From Stigmatella erecta (GTDB lineage: Bacteria > Myxococcota > Myxococcia > Myxococcales > Myxococcaceae), in contig NZ_FOIJ01000010.1 in NCBI RefSeq assembly GCF_900111745.1, positions 248,001 to 312,000 on the forward strand: DNA of 64,000 nt, read 5' to 3'. The notes under the pieces were generated by a model, which saw nothing but the letters and a program-made list of their open reading frames with translations, was not told the origin of the DNA and did not search any database. Position numbers and translations under genes: made by a program. Shown here piece by piece: positions 37,186-43,774 of this stretch (within the stretch, counting starts at the first letter, position 1; every line of letters starts with the position of its first letter).

Positions 37186-37218
37186 AAAAAGGGGCTGCCC
37201 CTGGAGAGGGACAGCCCC
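37186..37218 (-). terminator. Rho-independent terminator after GH87 gene
   Basis: On the minus strand: GGGGCTGTCCC, a short loop, GGGGCAGCCCC, then TTTTT. It begins 27 bases after the stop of the alpha-1,3-glucanase gene and before the SOUL gene start. Confidence 0.88.
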
Positions 37219-37244
37219 CGGTGCTTCAGGGACGAAGGGCTAAC

Positions 37245-40200
37245 TTACCAGTTGTTGCCCGTGCCCTTGGTGACCGTGAAGGCGCCACCGGCCTGGTTGG
37301 CGAACTTCCCGGAGGGCGCGTTGTTCACCGTCACGTTGGTGAAGCTGGCGCCACCCTGGGCCGTCGGCAGGACCTGCACGCCGTAGGTCGTCGGGTTGTT
37401 GATGGTGATGTTCTCGAACGCCACGTTGGCGAAGGAGCCGCCGTTGCTCTGGATGCTGATGCCCTGGTAGGTCGGATCCACGATGTCCACGTTCTTGATG
37501 GTGATGCCGTTCGTGGGGGTCTGGTCCGCGCGCAGCCAGATGGAGCCGAACTGCTGGCCGTTCCAGTAGGTGCCGCCGGTGCGCACCAGCGTCAGGCCGT
37601 CGATCGTCACGGACTCCAGGGGGAACGGGTTGAACTCGGAGCTGACGGTCAGGCCCGGGTAGGTCATCACATCGTAGGCGATGCTGTTCTCGATGCGGTT
37701 GCCCCGGCCGCCGTACACGGCGTACGCGGCGGCGCGCCACACGAGCTGCACGGTGCAGTTGCGGATGACGTTGTTGATGTTCGGCTGCGGGTAGAGGTCT
37801 CTCGCGGACCAGATGGCGAAGGCGTCATCGCCGGTGTTCCGGGCGTGCGAGTTCTCGATGATGCTGTCCTTGTTGCCGTTGCAGAGGTTGACGCCGTCCG
37901 CGCCGGTGTTGCGGATGCGCACGTTGCTGATGCGCAGGTTGGTCGACTCCGAGGGGCCGCCCACCCAGTAGCCGCAGTGCACGTGCTCAATCCACATGTT
38001 CTCGATGACGGTGTTCTTGAAGGCCGAGTTGACCCAGGCCTTGCCGCCCTGCGTGCGCAGGCCGTCGGTGGCGCCGAAGATGGCGAAGTCGCGGAACTTC
38101 GCGTTGTCCCCGGTGATGATGAAGCCCGTCTGGCCCCAGCCGGCATCCTCCGCCAGGCTGGCGTTGTAGAGCCGCGTGTGCCACAGGCCCGCGCCCTGGA
38201 TGGTGACGCCCTTGACCTGGATCTTGTTGGTCTGGTCGTACACGCCCGGCGGCAGGTAGACGCCGGAGAACCGGCCCGCCTCGACCGCCCAGATGGCCTG
38301 GCTGATGGCGTTGTCGTCCGCCTTGCCGTCGTTCGGGATGGCCGGCTCCCAGCCGTTGCCCGCCTGGGTGACGTCCACGTACCCGGCCGGCTTGGCGATG
38401 GGCGCCGCCACCAGCTCCAGGTCGACGAAGTCGATGGCGTAGTACGGCGAGGTGTCGCCCGAGTCCTTCTGCAGGCGCACGGTGGCGCCCGCGGGGATGG
38501 TGGTGTTCAGCAGCTTGCTGGACTCGTCGTAGATGCGGCGCGGCGGGCCCGCGGAGGGGTTGTTGTACTGGGTGGCGTCATCGCCGTAGACCCACGCCTC
38601 CTTGGAGGAGAGGTTCAGCGTGCCCAGCTTGCTGCCGTTGACGTAGAGGCTCAGCGTGGCCTGGATGCCGCCACCGCCGGCCGCGTCGGGCATGCTGTTG
38701 CGCACGACGATGGCGTTGGCCGGCGCCGAGGTGGTCCACTCCACGTACTCGCCCGTCGCGTCGAGCACGACCGCCTTGCGGCCCGAGGCCTCACCCGCGA
38801 TGGTGCCCAGCTGGCGGCCAGGGCCCTGGACGGTGCCGTTGGTGCGCCCGCTCTCCGCCTCGTACTGCAGCCAGGGCACGTTGGCGCCACGGCCCACGTA
38901 CAGGCTCGACGACTGGGTGTTGTTGCTCTCCACCGCCTCGTTGATGGCGTTGGCCGGGTCCACCGTCGCCACGAAGGTGTGGTTGCCGTTGGCGGCCGTC
39001 CACGTGCCGCTGAAGGTGACCGCGGCGGAAGCGCCCGCGGCCAGGAACGAGGAGGTGGCCCCCGTCAGCGTCGTGCTCCCGTCGATGACGAGCCGGAGCG
39101 CCACGGAGTTGCCCGTCGTCGCGTTCAGGCCCTGGTTGGCCACGTTCACCGTGAAGCTCACGGCGGTGCCGGCCGAGGGCGTGCTGGGGCTCCACGAGAT
39201 GGACTGGACCACGAGGTCCGGCCCCGGGCTCTGGGACACCGTGAGGCTCTTGGTGAGGCTGTTGTTGGCGTCGCTGAACTCGGCGATGGTGTTGTCCGGA
39301 TCCACGACGGCCGTCACCGGGTAGGTGCCGAAGGCGGTGGACCAGGTGGAGTTGGCCGTCAGCGTGGTGCTCGCGCCGGCCGCCAGCGACGTGCTGGTGG
39401 GCAGCGTGGAGGTGGCCACTTCCTGGCCGCCCACGCGGAAGGAGACCTTGTGGACGCCGCTGGGGCTCGCCGCGGTGCCGGAGTTCTTCACCACGGCCTT
39501 GAAGGTGATGGCCTCGCCCTGCTGCGGCGGGCTGCTCGCCGAGGACCACTGGATGTCGCTGACCGACAGGTCCGGCTTCTGGGCGGTGGTGGCGGCCAGG
39601 GACAGCGCGTCCAGGTTGATGTTCGCCCCGTCACCGGCGTCGTACTGGTACGTCACCTGGTTGGTGCCGGCGTTGAGGTAGGCCACCTCGGTCTTGGTGA
39701 GCCAGGTGTCCCAGTTGCCCGTGGTGGGCAGGATGCTCTGGCCCAGCTTGGCGCCGTTCACGTAGTAGGAGATGTTGGACTCGGCGAAGCCGTTGCCGTA
39801 GCGCAGGCCCAGGTCGTACCAGCCGGCGCTGGCCACCGAGACGTTGAAGCGGGTGCTGGCGCCCTGGGTCCAGTACCCCTCCACGAAGCCCGAGCCCGTG
39901 TAGCCGGCGTGGTTGGTGGTCACCACGGCCCCACCGCTCAGCGTGGCGGACTCCGCCTCGTAGCGGCTGCCGCCCTGGGAGGCGGGCACGTAGGTGGCGG
40001 AGATCGTCGTGGCCGCCGCGGACGTCCGGTAGGTGGTGGAGGCCGCGTTGATGTTGCCGAAGTTCGCCGCCACGCCGCCCGTCCAGGCGCTGAACACCTG
40101 GCCGGAAGGGGGCGCCGCCGCGGTGATGTTCACCACGGTGTTGGCCGCGTAGGCGCCGCTGCCCGAGCCGTTGTTGACGGTCAGCGCGTAGGTGGCCGAG

Positions 40201-40763
40201 CCCGCCGTCGGCGAGCCAATCACCTGGAACTCCGCCACCTGGGCGCCCGTGGAGCCCGTGTTGGAGTTGAACTGGAGCCGCACCTCGCTCACGGTGGAGG
40301 TGACGGGGATCGTCACCTGGTTGCCCGTGGAGGGGTTGAAGGTGTAGTTGGCCGCGCCCACGAGCGTGGAGAAGGTGCTGGTGCTCGCGTTGTGGCCCAG
40401 CACGGTGATGTTCTGGGTGCGGGTGGCCCAGATGCTATCCGGGTTGAGCTGCAGCACGATGGACTTGATGTCGTGGTTGCTGCCCAGGTTCACCGTCAGC
40501 AGGTTGGGATAGGCATTGGGGGCGCCCTCCCAGTACGTGCCGCGGTTCCCGTCATTCGCGTTCGTGGCGTAATAGACCTGCGTATAGGAGGAGGCGGTGA
40601 TGGCCTTGCCCTGCGCGACGTTCGCGTCGGCGAAGGCTTCCACCTGGCCCAGCTCCTGCCGCGTCTGCGATTGGGGCTCGCAAGCGCTGAAAATCACTTG
40701 GGACACGAGCAGCGCGACGGCGCCGCCAGTCCTTTGCCAATGGGGGACGTTCCGTAATTTCAC
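37245..40763 (-). CDS. Modular lipoprotein GH87 alpha-1,3-glucanase (mutanase)
   Basis: A 1172-aa exported enzyme (lipobox IFSAC, Cys28). Domains: discoidin/F5-8C (about 43-190), InlB-repeat-like (192-258), CBM35 (267-391), two CARDB adhesion domains (397-510, 515-622), a second CBM35-like module (630-785), then a parallel beta-helix GH87 catalytic domain (about 790-1172). GH87 catalytic carboxylates sit as Asp956 (TGADGVNLC) and Asp979-Asp980 (NTGDDAFAIW), a 23/24-residue spacing matching characterised GH87 alpha-1,3-glucanases. Fungal cell-wall alpha-1,3-glucan, or bacterial mutan, is the expected substrate, so a role in fungal predation or nutrition is plausible. GTG 40763 with GGAGG five bases upstream. 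Confidence 0.9.
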   Translation of the reverse strand: MKLRNVPHWQRTGGAVALLVSQVIFSACEPQSQTRQELGQVEAFADANVAQGKAITASSYTQVYYATNANDGNRGTYWEGAPNAYPNLLTVNLGSNHDIKSIVLQLNPDSIWATRTQNITVLGHNASTSTFSTLVGAANYTFNPSTGNQVTIPVTSTVSEVRLQFNSNTGSTGAQVAEFQVIGSPTAGSATYALTVNNGSGSGAYAANTVVNITAAAPPSGQVFSAWTGGVAANFGNINAASTTYRTSAAATTISATYVPASQGGSRYEAESATLSGGAVVTTNHAGYTGSGFVEGYWTQGASTRFNVSVASAGWYDLGLRYGNGFAESNISYYVNGAKLGQSILPTTGNWDTWLTKTEVAYLNAGTNQVTYQYDAGDGANINLDALSLAATTAQKPDLSVSDIQWSSASSPPQQGEAITFKAVVKNSGTAASPSGVHKVSFRVGGQEVATSTLPTSTSLAAGASTTLTANSTWSTAFGTYPVTAVVDPDNTIAEFSDANNSLTKSLTVSQSPGPDLVVQSISWSPSTPSAGTAVSFTVNVANQGLNATTGNSVALRLVIDGSTTLTGATSSFLAAGASAAVTFSGTWTAANGNHTFVATVDPANAINEAVESNNTQSSSLYVGRGANVPWLQYEAESGRTNGTVQGPGRQLGTIAGEASGRKAVVLDATGEYVEWTTSAPANAIVVRNSMPDAAGGGGIQATLSLYVNGSKLGTLNLSSKEAWVYGDDATQYNNPSAGPPRRIYDESSKLLNTTIPAGATVRLQKDSGDTSPYYAIDFVDLELVAAPIAKPAGYVDVTQAGNGWEPAIPNDGKADDNAISQAIWAVEAGRFSGVYLPPGVYDQTNKIQVKGVTIQGAGLWHTRLYNASLAEDAGWGQTGFIITGDNAKFRDFAIFGATDGLRTQGGKAWVNSAFKNTVIENMWIEHVHCGYWVGGPSESTNLRISNVRIRNTGADGVNLCNGNKDSIIENSHARNTGDDAFAIWSARDLYPQPNINNVIRNCTVQLVWRAAAYAVYGGRGNRIENSIAYDVMTYPGLTVSSEFNPFPLESVTIDGLTLVRTGGTYWNGQQFGSIWLRADQTPTNGITIKNVDIVDPTYQGISIQSNGGSFANVAFENITINNPTTYGVQVLPTAQGGASFTNVTVNNAPSGKFANQAGGAFTVTKGTGNNW

Positions 40764-40811
40764 TCTGGCCTCCGGGGGATGCAGCGGTTCACAAACGGTC
40801 TGGCGAGGCCT

Positions 40812-40831
40812 GGCGTGTCCTGGGACACGCC
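40812..40831. promoter_or_regulatory. Perfect inverted repeat upstream of GH87 gene
   Basis: GGCGTGTCC-TG-GGACACGCC, a 9-bp palindrome 49 bases before the GH87 start. A related looser pair, GGGTGTCC (40894-40901) and TGACACCC (40925-40932), lies further upstream. These look like repressor/activator operators or a leader hairpin for the glucanase gene. Confidence 0.5.
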
Positions 40832-40969
40832 GCCTCTCGCCTTGCGCGGACAGAGGCATAAAACCGCTAAATCGGGTCACGGGCTTTTTTGAAGGGTGTC
40901 CGTTCTCGCTGGGAGAGCTGGTTTTGACACCCAGCGTCATGGCGGCGCGCGGGTGTAGCCTGGGGGGCG

Positions 40970-42076
40970 ATGAGGGTGACGCGGCTGGACATAGCGGGGT
41001 ACCGCTCGGTGAAGCGGATGGTGTTGCCGGTGCACCCGGTGACGGTGGTGGTGGGGGCCAACGGGAGCGGGAAGACGAACCTGTACCGCGCGCTGCACCT
41101 GCTGCAGGCGGCGGCGGAGGGGCGGCTGGCGCGGACGCTGGCGGAGGAGGGTGGCGCGCCGAGCGTGGTGTGGGCGGGGCCGCGCGAGGCCAAGCAGCCG
41201 GTGCGGATGCGGGTGGGGGTGTCGCTGGAGGACGAGCTGGCGTACGAGCTGAGCTGCGGCCTCGTGCCGAAGGACCCCTCCGAGCGCTTCAGCCTGTTCG
41301 TGCTGGACCCGGAGGTGAAGGAGGAGCACCTCTGGGCGCTGTCCGGCGGGCGGCGGGCGGTGCTGATGGAGCGCAAGGACCGGACGGTGTTCCTGAGGGA
41401 CGCGGAGGGCCAGCGCGTGACGTTCCCCTCGCAGCTGTGGAGCGCCGAGTCGGTGCTGGATCAGCTCGCCGAGCCCCACCGCTTCCCCCGGCTGACGGAG
41501 CTGCAGCGGGCGCTGAGCGCGTGGCGCTTCTACCACCAGTTCCGCACGGACCTGGACGCGCCCTCCCGGCACCCGCAGATTGGCGTCCGGACGACGGCGC
41601 TGGCGCCGGACGGGAGGGACCTGGCGGCGGCGCTGGGCACCATCCGGGAGATTGGCGACCGGCGGGGGCTGGAGCGGGCGCTGGAGGATGCGTTCCCGGG
41701 GGCGGTGCTGGAGGTGAAGGCCCCGCAGGGCCGCTTCAGCCTGGCGCTGCACCTGCCGGGGCTGAGCCGGCCCATGGAGGCCAGCGAGCTGTCGGACGGG
41801 ACGCTGCGCTACCTGTGCCTGCTGGCGGCGTTGCTGAGCCCCCGGCCCCCGCCGTTCCTGGCGCTGAACGAGCCGGAGACGAGCCTGCACCCGGAGCTGC
41901 TGGGGCCCTTGGCCCGGCTCATCGTGGAGGCGGCGAAGCACAGTCAGATCTGGATCACCACGCACGCGGAGCCGCTCGCGGAGGCCATCTGCCGCCGCAC
42001 GGGGTACGAGCCCGTCCGGCTGGTGAAGCGCGCGGGGGCCACGGAGGTGGAGGGCGCGAAGGTGGGCGAGGACTGA
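40970..42076 (+). CDS. SMC/RecF-like AAA ATPase (COG4637-type)
   Basis: A 368-aa P-loop ATPase. N-terminus MRVTRLDIAGYRSVKRMVLP, Walker A VVGANGSGKTN, signature-like ELSDGTLRYLCLLAALLS, Walker B LALNEPETSLHPE and a H-loop WITTHAEPLAEAI. The layout is that of the stand-alone predicted ATPases related to RecF and OLD ATPase domains, but without a TOPRIM domain. Role unknown: DNA repair and defence are both possible. GGGGGG precedes the ATG. A membrane protein gene begins 93 bases downstream on the same strand. Confidence 0.87.
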   Translation: MRVTRLDIAGYRSVKRMVLPVHPVTVVVGANGSGKTNLYRALHLLQAAAEGRLARTLAEEGGAPSVVWAGPREAKQPVRMRVGVSLEDELAYELSCGLVPKDPSERFSLFVLDPEVKEEHLWALSGGRRAVLMERKDRTVFLRDAEGQRVTFPSQLWSAESVLDQLAEPHRFPRLTELQRALSAWRFYHQFRTDLDAPSRHPQIGVRTTALAPDGRDLAAALGTIREIGDRRGLERALEDAFPGAVLEVKAPQGRFSLALHLPGLSRPMEASELSDGTLRYLCLLAALLSPRPPPFLALNEPETSLHPELLGPLARLIVEAAKHSQIWITTHAEPLAEAICRRTGYEPVRLVKRAGATEVEGAKVGED

Positions 42077-42169: not shown

Positions 42170-43774
42170 ATGAACAAGAGCGGCGCAGGGCCAGGCGGCA
42201 AGACGCTGGCGTCCGAGGGCGCGGAGACGGTGTGGCAGCGCGGGTGGGGCCTGCTCCAGCGCATCGTGGGGTGGGGCCTGCTCGTCGTGGCCCTGGTCAT
42301 CGTGGCCCTCTATTTCCTGTGGAGCGTCCCGGGGGATGCGCCGCCCCCGCCGGGGTTCCTGGGGGGCGTGCACCAGGTGATGGTCCGGCTGCGCGAGGGC
42401 AAGGATGCGGCCGGGGTCTTCCTGCTCATCGTGGCGCTCTGGGCCTGCTCCCAGTTTCTGTTCCTCAAGAAGGAGAGCGACGGCGTCCGGGCCGTGCTGG
42501 GCCTGGTGCTGGGCGGGCTCGTCTTCATTGGCCTGGGCGGGCACATGCTGTCGCACCAGACGCTGTGGGGCTGGGGGCTGGCGGTGCTGCCGGCCATGCT
42601 GGTGGTCCACCACGGGCTCTACCTGGGGCGCATCAAGCCGCACTTCCTGCCGGAGGAGTTCAAGGCGCACCCCGAGAAGGTGGGGCTCGACCGCTACAAC
42701 CTCAAGGACCTGGTCGAGGCGAGCGACCGGTACTTCAACGCCAGCAACATCGCGCTGCGCTACGGCTTGCCGGCGCTGGCCATCCTGGCCATCGGGGCCA
42801 TCCTCTTCCACAGCCTCAACCCCGTGACGGGCTGGGCGCTGGAGAGGGTCCTCGAGGGGGAGATCCTCGGGCCGCAGGGCAAGGAGGTCCGGTTGTGGAT
42901 CTCCCCGCCAACGCTGGAGGCGGCCCGGTACGGGGCGGCGGGGGCGTACGTGTACGTGCTGCTGTACCTGGGGCAGCGGGGCTTCCGGCATGACATCTCC
43001 AGCGGCTCGGCGCTCTGGTGCGCGGTGACGCTGGGGCTCGGGCCCATCCTGGCGGCGGTGTTCTCCACGGTGTGGGTGGGCGAGGCGGGCGCGGGGGCCA
43101 CGGGCTGGGGCACGCGGGCCCTGTACTTTGGCGTGGGCCTGTCCCCGCGGCACCTGGCGCAGCAGGTGACTCGCCTGGTCCAGCGCGTGGTCGTGGATTC
43201 GGAGAAGGGGGGCCTGAAGGACCGCACCATTCCCCTGACGGTCATCCGGGGCATCACCCCGCTCATCGCGGAGCGGCTCTCGGAAGAGGGCATCTACGAC
43301 GCGGTGGGCATGGCCATGGCGGATCCGATGCGGCTCCAGCGCAACACCAACTTCGACAAGCACCAGATCCTCGCCTGGATTGACGCCGCCCTGCTGGTGC
43401 ACGCGCTGCCCGGGTCCTGGGAAGTCCTGGAGAGCAAGGGCATCCGGGGCGCGAGGGACCTGGTCTGGTACACCTATGACACGGGGCCCGAGGCGGACCA
43501 TGGCTTCAAGCAACTGGCCAGCGGGGTGCTGGACGAGAGCCTCCTGAAGGACGTGGCGTGGCGCCTGGCGCAGGACGCGCAGGCCCAGCGCATCCAGCTG
43601 CTGTACCAGCTCGTCAACATGCAGATGGAGGACGAGCTGGCTTCCACCCAGCCGCCGTCCTTCGAGGCGCCCCCGGGGCTGGCGCTGGCCGCCCCCCAGC
43701 TTCAGGGCGCGGCGTTGCCCGTGGAGCCGGAGCCCGCCCCGGAGCCGGAGGAGAAGCGGGCTTCCAAGGCCTGA
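42170..43774 (+). CDS. Polytopic membrane protein with cytoplasmic HhH-like domain
   Basis: A 534-aa protein, not recognised as a named family. Six or seven hydrophobic segments fall between residues 30 and 325 ([79 protein letters not shown]). The soluble C-terminal half contains [20 protein letters not shown], resembling a helix-hairpin-helix/DUF4332-like DNA or protein-binding motif, then helices rich in Gln/Leu and a Pro/Glu tail. A role at the membrane is clear; function is not. The 3' end overlaps rpiB by 73 bases in convergent orientation. Confidence 0.78.

Follow-up and report, generated by a model that had tools for sequence, protein, structure and literature searches.

The minus-strand gene at positions 37245 to 40763 of a 64,000-nucleotide stretch of the Stigmatella erecta genome (NCBI RefSeq assembly GCF_900111745.1, contig NZ_FOIJ01000010.1, positions 248,001 to 312,000; hereafter the window) encodes a member of glycoside hydrolase family 87 (GH87) that, judging from sequence and predicted fold, very probably cuts α-1,3-glucan. 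The best explanation for its role, to which a probability of about 80% may be assigned on the basis of sequence, a structural model and analogy with characterised enzymes, is that of a surface-anchored enzyme that opens fungal walls by cleaving the α-1,3-glucan. The enzyme is ordinary for GH87 and not a new kind. It is one of four GH87 gene products of this genome, and the four genes derive from different GH87 clades. A preliminary description of the window had given gene, strand and coordinates correctly; the parts of the gene are as follows.

37245..40763, minus strand: GH87 α-1,3-glucanase gene with 1172 codons before the stop, from the GTG at 40761-40763 to the stop at 37245 (Pfam domains, phmmer, orthologue alignment)
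40680..40763, minus strand: predicted signal peptide and lipobox (IFSAC, Cys28; Cys in 13/13 orthologues)
40227..40601, minus strand: discoidin (F5/8 type C) module, residues 55-179 (Pfam E 9e-12)
39978..40208, minus strand: β-strand module without Pfam name, residues 186-262 (no Pfam match at E ≤ 1; predicted model)
39633..39965, minus strand: CBM35 module (CBM_35), residues 267-377 (Pfam E 2e-10)
39249..39578, minus strand: CARDB module 1, residues 396-505 (Pfam, the better of two CARDB stretches)
38907..39221, minus strand: CARDB module 2, about residues 515-619 (Pfam counts two CARDB stretches; phmmer match to 2l0d_A over query residues 515-619)
38409..38882, minus strand: CatAgl_D1 (residues 628-785), the galactose-binding-like part of the catalytic unit (Pfam E 3e-57)
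37248..38273, minus strand: CatAgl_D2 (residues 831-1172), the right-handed β-helix part of the catalytic unit (Pfam E 5e-60)
37896..37898, minus strand: catalytic Asp956, corresponding to AglFH1 D1045 and Agl-KA D1067 (alignments and structure match)
37824..37829, minus strand: catalytic Asp979 and Asp980, corresponding to AglFH1 D1068/D1069 and Agl-KA D1090/D1091 (alignments and structure match)

The assignment is carried by the C-terminal catalytic unit, both halves of which score far above the Pfam cut-off of 27 bits each (CatAgl_D1 193.3, CatAgl_D2 203.8). Among solved structures, phmmer places the characterised α-1,3-glucanase AglFH1 first (E 6e-91), with Agl-KA second (5e-70) and 7c7d, an enzyme from Streptomyces, third (3e-55). 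D956, D979 and D980 align with the AglFH1 residues that are mutated in PDB 6k0p, 6k0q and 6k0s (D1045A, D1068A, D1069A), and the counterparts in Agl-KA, D1067, D1090 and D1091, are described as important for catalysis in PMC6814745. The spacing of the triad (D, +23, +24) is exactly that of AglFH1, as the preliminary description had stated, and the alignments have Asp at all three positions, with none replaced; the same holds for 13/13 myxobacterial orthologues, the window copy included. An AlphaFold2 model computed from 21 sequences reached a mean predicted local distance difference test score (pLDDT) of 78.7 and a predicted template modelling score (pTM) of 0.55 over the whole chain, with ten-residue mean pLDDT values of 75-97, mostly ≥85, in residues 831-1160. 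A Foldseek search with this predicted model returned GH87 chains of three enzymes at ranks 1-7, with a template modelling score (TM) of 0.87 over the target for AglFH1 (6k0q/6k0m). As expected of GH87, a galactose-binding-like domain is packed on a right-handed β-helix in the predicted model. According to the same source (PMC6814745), burial of this domain against the β-helix is a common feature of the family.

This feature corrects the module list. The discoidin and the two CARDB modules that had been proposed from the sequence were recovered by Pfam, while only one of the two proposed CBM35-type modules was: the supposed second one is CatAgl_D1 and therefore an integral part of the catalytic unit, not an accessory module. 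Isolated CBM35 crystal structures were among the Foldseek matches (TM 0.79-0.93 of target). Residues 186-262 form β strands at moderate confidence in the AlphaFold2 model and constitute an extra module beyond those listed earlier. All 13 orthologues (window copy included) are full-length, share 74-96% identity with the window copy and have identical module order, and dN/dS between the window copy and each of the other 12 amounts to 0.22-0.45 over residues 30-1172 (0.12-0.42 in the catalytic unit). The gene has therefore been kept by selection. Thus, the description of a GH87 α-1,3-glucanase with a lipobox is borne out by sequence, fold, catalytic residues and 13/13 orthologues.

The protein is predicted to be a surface-anchored lipoprotein. 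The motif IFSAC at residues 24-28 matches a relaxed PROSITE-type lipobox pattern and fails the strict pattern [LVI][ASTVI][GAS]C because of the Phe at position -3, both patterns being used in what we assume to be their usual versions. Across the 13 orthologues, the relaxed pattern is present in 13/13, the strict one in 9/13, and Cys28 in 13/13, so that the proposed lipobox stands. The signal peptides around it diverge: identity over residues 1-47 is 30-37% in nine of the twelve others and 68-92% in the congeners L092-L094.

The flanks of the gene contain three short elements that bear on its start, its end and its possible regulation.

40769..40773, minus strand: likely ribosome binding site GGAGG, five bases 5' of the GTG
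37190..37219, minus strand: intrinsic terminator, a 13-pair stem followed by a T-run (scan; hairpin 3' of the stop in orthologues)
40812..40831, no strand: upstream palindrome GGCGTGTCC-TG-GGACACGCC, kept with one base changed in 1/3 syntenic congeners

An alternative, longer frame would begin at an ATG at 40940. The GTG is preferred because of the GGAGG five bases upstream of it; moreover, the extension is common only to the closest congener, L094, the frame being shut nine codons ahead of the GTG in L092 and L093, and the remaining orthologues showing no likeness in this region. The predicted terminator was found where it had been proposed. The scan alone is weak in this respect, with 3 such sites in 4 kb vs 2.4 expected from shuffles, but a comparable hairpin, read by eye, lies 3' of the stop in 13/13 orthologues, with differing stem sequences. 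As for the palindromes from which inducibility had been suggested, the one at 40812-40831 was confirmed 5' of the gene, and the suggested inducibility is unsupported because this palindrome is not conserved: it occurs only in L094, and L092 and L093 lack the stretch in which it lies. With one mismatch allowed, the whole genome contains just two sites, the second of them differing at one position. A role as regulatory operator was rejected on the grounds of the poor conservation and the number of sites.

The case for a fungal target is comparative. In a family survey, GH87 matches were found in 14/96 genomes, 13 of which lie above the Pfam cut-off and carry 1 to 7 matches each; outside this set of 13, G049 has a partial match below the cut-off (E 1.4e-5). 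A survey of 195 genomes of the phylum yielded matches in 14, identical to those of the family. Within the window's genus and one related genus, 7-9 matches to the chitinase family GH18 occur in the 8 genomes with GH87 vs 0, 0, 0, 1 and 2 in the 5 without, a separation that only 1/420 stratified permutations equalled. At least 4 GH18 matches are present in all 13 GH87 genomes above cut-off. The numbers for GH18, GH13 and GH16 are uncurated matches at E ≤ 0.001, those for GH13 including split pieces. GH71 is unrelated to GH87. It is another α-1,3-glucanase family, with fungal characterised members according to PMC11837517 and PMC12394665. Across the 96 genomes, at least three GH18 matches are found in 42/44 genomes with GH87 or GH71 vs 17/52 with neither. 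We take G034 and G038, in which GH87 is present, to be Cystobacter fuscus and Stigmatella aurantiaca, and G002, in which it is absent, to be Archangium gephyra; on this assignment, S. aurantiaca has an orthologue of the window gene. The first two species degrade chitin and the third does not, as reported in PMC12093494.

Several points weigh against this reading. The threshold of three GH18 matches was chosen after the table had been seen, and both the permutation test and the GH18 tallies ignore shared ancestry. The same tendency is seen in the control families GH13 and GH16, albeit more weakly (10/420 permutations each vs 1/420 for GH18). Three or more GH18 matches are also present in 46/83 genomes without GH87, and chitinase number therefore fails to predict GH87 outside the two genera. 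The scanned neighbours of the gene, M1 and M28 peptidases, an aldo/keto reductase, a SOUL protein, an AAA_21 ATPase, a MarR regulator and one protein without Pfam match, do not suggest fungal attack. To these may be added the Phe at -3 in the lipobox of the window copy and, at the level of substrate, the inclusion of mycodextranases in GH87 (PMC10696023).

A self-directed function is one alternative: in development or germination, the enzyme might remodel or open an α-1,3-glucan that is suspected in the spore coat of the producer itself. The notion of an α-1,3 chain in the Myxococcus spore coat reportedly goes back to Sutherland and Mackenzie in 1977. Coat glucose of Myxococcus may form such a chain, according to PMC3858216. 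However, a general need for GH87 in spores is difficult to reconcile with its distribution, no match above cut-off having been found in 27/27 genomes of genus g19 or 16/16 of genus g6. The two codes presumably stand for the genera Corallococcus and Myxococcus, both of which sporulate. GH71 is common there, being present in 14/16 g6 and 15/27 g19 genomes (29/43 together; G016-G031, G053-G079), and occurs in 4/13 GH87 genomes. Moreover, 12/27 g19 genomes have neither family, and within the two genera compared above the presence of GH87 tracks chitinase number. The evidence hence speaks against a general spore-coat role, which appears very improbable, and leaves some room for one confined to particular lineages. 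Chitin-walled fungi as the target, in place of the producer's own spore coat, have moderate support from these comparisons. The fungal target proposed in the preliminary description thus draws on the GH18 separation in two genera, the absence of GH87 from sporulating genera and the known activity of the family, all of it indirect.

Two further alternatives leave the fold unchanged. The wall target could also stay the same with nigeran, an alternating α-1,3/α-1,4 glucan, as the preferred substrate, since actinomycete mycodextranases belong to GH87 (PMC10696023) and the fourth copy of the genome, albeit not the window copy, lies inside the actinobacterial clade. Against this, the window copy shares a larger clade with the characterised α-1,3-glucanase AglFH1 (support 99/95, in a tree without a characterised mycodextranase), and its identity over aligned columns is 42% to AglFH1 vs 33% to Agl-KA. 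A mycodextranase-like preference is accordingly considered unlikely, if slightly less so than the spore-coat role. A better candidate, though still an unlikely one and overlapping with the preferred explanation, is that the same enzyme acts on the same substrate in α-glucan debris of the soil instead of live fungi. Scavenging would be expected to involve equal genes and activities, and the best 80 of at least 477 named GH87 relatives stem mostly from soil-type Streptomyces and other actinobacteria. Sequence cannot separate scavenging from predation; the predicted lipid anchor would favour use on contact over release.

For the preferred explanation, the attack on fungal walls, the following mechanism can be envisaged. 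The lipid anchor would keep the enzyme outside the cell, where the discoidin and CBM35 modules may bind the insoluble wall, as suggested by Agl-KA, and the CARDB modules could serve as spacers. The D1/D2 unit, in which the three Asp residues are in place, would then cut α-1,3 linkages by inversion via Asp956/979/980, in analogy to Agl-KA and AglFH1. Presumably, the enzyme opens fungal walls for feeding together with chitinases and the three other GH87 enzymes of the genome, which are encoded above the Pfam cut-off at these positions (G000 denotes the window genome, whose contig C10 holds the window).

G000:C20:19048-20259, strand n/a: further GH87 gene (L002/L009), triad intact
G000:C4:125628-126686, strand n/a: further GH87 gene (L003/L010), triad intact
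G000:C1:221380-222369, strand n/a: further GH87 gene (L004/L011), triad intact

These copies are 42-44% identical to the window copy over the aligned part. All four proteins have the D...DD triad and, by eye, begin with a signal peptide that has a possible lipobox Cys at its end. The accessory modules of the other three differ: one has none in Pfam, one has two CBM35/CBM6-type stretches, and one has two discoidin and two CARDB stretches.

The ancestry of the copies was analysed in two trees of the catalytic unit, a first one of 44 rows whose spans still contained accessory modules and a second one of 41 rows trimmed to the catalytic unit. The named relatives were the best 80 of at least 477 confirmed GH87 stretches (at least 591 candidates). 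From these loci (L012-L091), L012 was left out of the first tree because L096 is the same gene, L013-L015 were included, and 13/76 of L016-L091 were hand-picked, among them Streptomyces JHA26, which gave two rows. The trimmed tree omits Agl-KA, the G035 remnant described below and the second JHA26 row. In both trees, clades B and D are represented by one copy each, that of the window genome, and C, E and F by only some copies of other genomes. In the trimmed, unrooted tree, two genes from a single metagenome-assembled genome (MAG) of Fibrobacteres form the sister of the window group (97/94). Copy D (G000:C1) lies inside a 100/100 clade of 13 rows, the others being 11 actinobacteria and one Chloroflexota MAG, its position within the clade being unsettled in the trimmed tree. 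Another Chloroflexota gene is the loose partner of copies C and F (94/91 and 88/69), copy B joins AglFH1 with weak support (88/54), and group E is on its own. A single group of the 24 myxobacterial rows was rejected in the trimmed tree by the approximately unbiased test (p-AU 5e-19), by which duplication within the lineage was rejected as the source of the four copies; the group was tested after the first tree had been seen, and the placement of the long branches (copy B, AglFH1) is uncertain. Several separate acquisitions of GH87, partly from actinobacteria, would be the simplest reading, with a direction that the unrooted tree can only suggest.

Other GH87 sequences encountered in the survey include a remnant in G035 (L109, 4010-5368, plus strand) of 452 residues with Gln, Ala and Asp at the triad positions by eye, a decayed or repurposed copy, and a copy with an in-frame TAA at G038:C1:4768020-4769099. 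L104-L107, whose open frames span 723-750 residues, form a further GH87-like group, of which L105 and L106 have a plain signal peptide in which the lipobox Cys is absent by eye. For L105, a group E protein, hmmscan reports CatAgl_D1 and a C-terminal DUF7910 and no CatAgl_D2, for which the genome search had given 63 bits. Three of the four genomes with genus code g7 contain, next to the orthologue of the window gene and convergent to it, a second GH87 gene that belongs to a different clade.

L098, 12199-14691, minus strand: second GH87 gene in g7
L099, 3768-5633, plus strand: second GH87 gene in g7
L100, 12422-14467, minus strand: second GH87 gene in g7

The surroundings of the window gene are conserved only among close relatives. 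When the 12 orthologous 17-kb loci were searched, all eight neighbour proteins were present in the congeners L092-L094 only; elsewhere, single neighbours matched, namely the M28 peptidase in L103 and the aldo/keto reductase in L095 and L102. A conserved operon or locus around the GH87 gene was thus rejected, the full set occurring in only 3/12 loci. The divergent AAA_21 ATPase gene (40970-42076, plus strand) shares its upstream region with the GH87 gene and is 91-99% identical in the three syntenic congeners, and a 534-residue protein without Pfam match (42170-43774, plus strand) is 83-95% conserved in the same three.

A broader scenario, put forward tentatively and at slightly below even odds, is that fungus-eating myxobacteria armed themselves against α-1,3-glucan on several separate occasions: on the Stigmatella/Cystobacter/Archangium side with GH87 from different foreign lineages (four clades in the window genome, one inside an actinobacterial clade), and on the Myxococcus/Corallococcus side mostly with GH71. 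If so, bacterial fungivory would repeatedly have been selected for breakage of α-1,3-glucan, and fungus eaters could be predicted from gene sets. Since the S. aurantiaca and C. fuscus genomes were released years ago, automatic annotation of their GH87 genes presumably exists. No paper giving a functional account of GH87 or GH71 in myxobacteria was found among the open-access papers listed, in a search that the spellings 'GH 87' and 'family 87' would escape and that did not extend to subscription papers. The strings GH87 and GH71 are absent from the main text of a survey of carbohydrate-active enzymes in 61 myxobacteria (PMC12093494), and the antifungal enzymes of myxobacteria named in a review are β-1,6- and β-1,3-glucanases and chitinases (PMC10800785). 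Compared with the preliminary description, the additions are the copy number of GH87 and the mixed ancestry of these genes, a corrected list of modules, the removal of the argument from the palindrome and a comparative case for fungal walls. The pattern of presence and absence provides a set of genomes in which an α-1,3-glucanase should or should not matter for fungal predation, and the orthologues might be cloned to obtain enzymes for biocontrol or for the removal of plaque.

In its use, the window enzyme would resemble the surface-bound myxobacterial β-1,6-glucanase, likewise a fungal-wall enzyme used on fungi, which differs, by description only, in the linkage cleaved (PMC10875029, PMC11936981). 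Agl-EK14 from Flavobacterium sp. EK-14 is also a Gram-negative GH87 enzyme and hydrolyses α-1,3-glucan of fungal walls; its architecture is described in PMC10696023 as a catalytic domain followed by Ig-like, ricin-type and secretion domains, and the word lipoprotein is absent from the main text. The closest non-myxobacterial relatives among the best 80 of at least 477 are the Fibrobacteres MAG pair L013 and L014 (61% and 54% identity over aligned columns). By eye, L014 shares the order CBM35-CARDB-CARDB-D1-D2, while both lack a visible discoidin module and have other C-terminal tails. Agl-KA from Bacillus circulans KA-304 (PDB 5ZRU) likewise has a discoidin and CBM array ahead of a C-terminal catalytic unit with the triad D1067/D1090/D1091 (PMC6814745), but in the arrangement DS1-CBM6-TP-DS2-UCD in contrast to DS-β module-CBM35-CARDB-CARDB in the window enzyme, and with 28% identity in the structural alignment. 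AglFH1 from Paenibacillus glycanilyticus FH11 (PDB 6K0M series) comes from a Gram-positive source and is compared in the catalytic unit only; with 37% identity in the structural alignment, it shares with the window enzyme the D1+D2 unit, three Asp residues at identical spacing and, at a TM of 0.87, the predicted fold.

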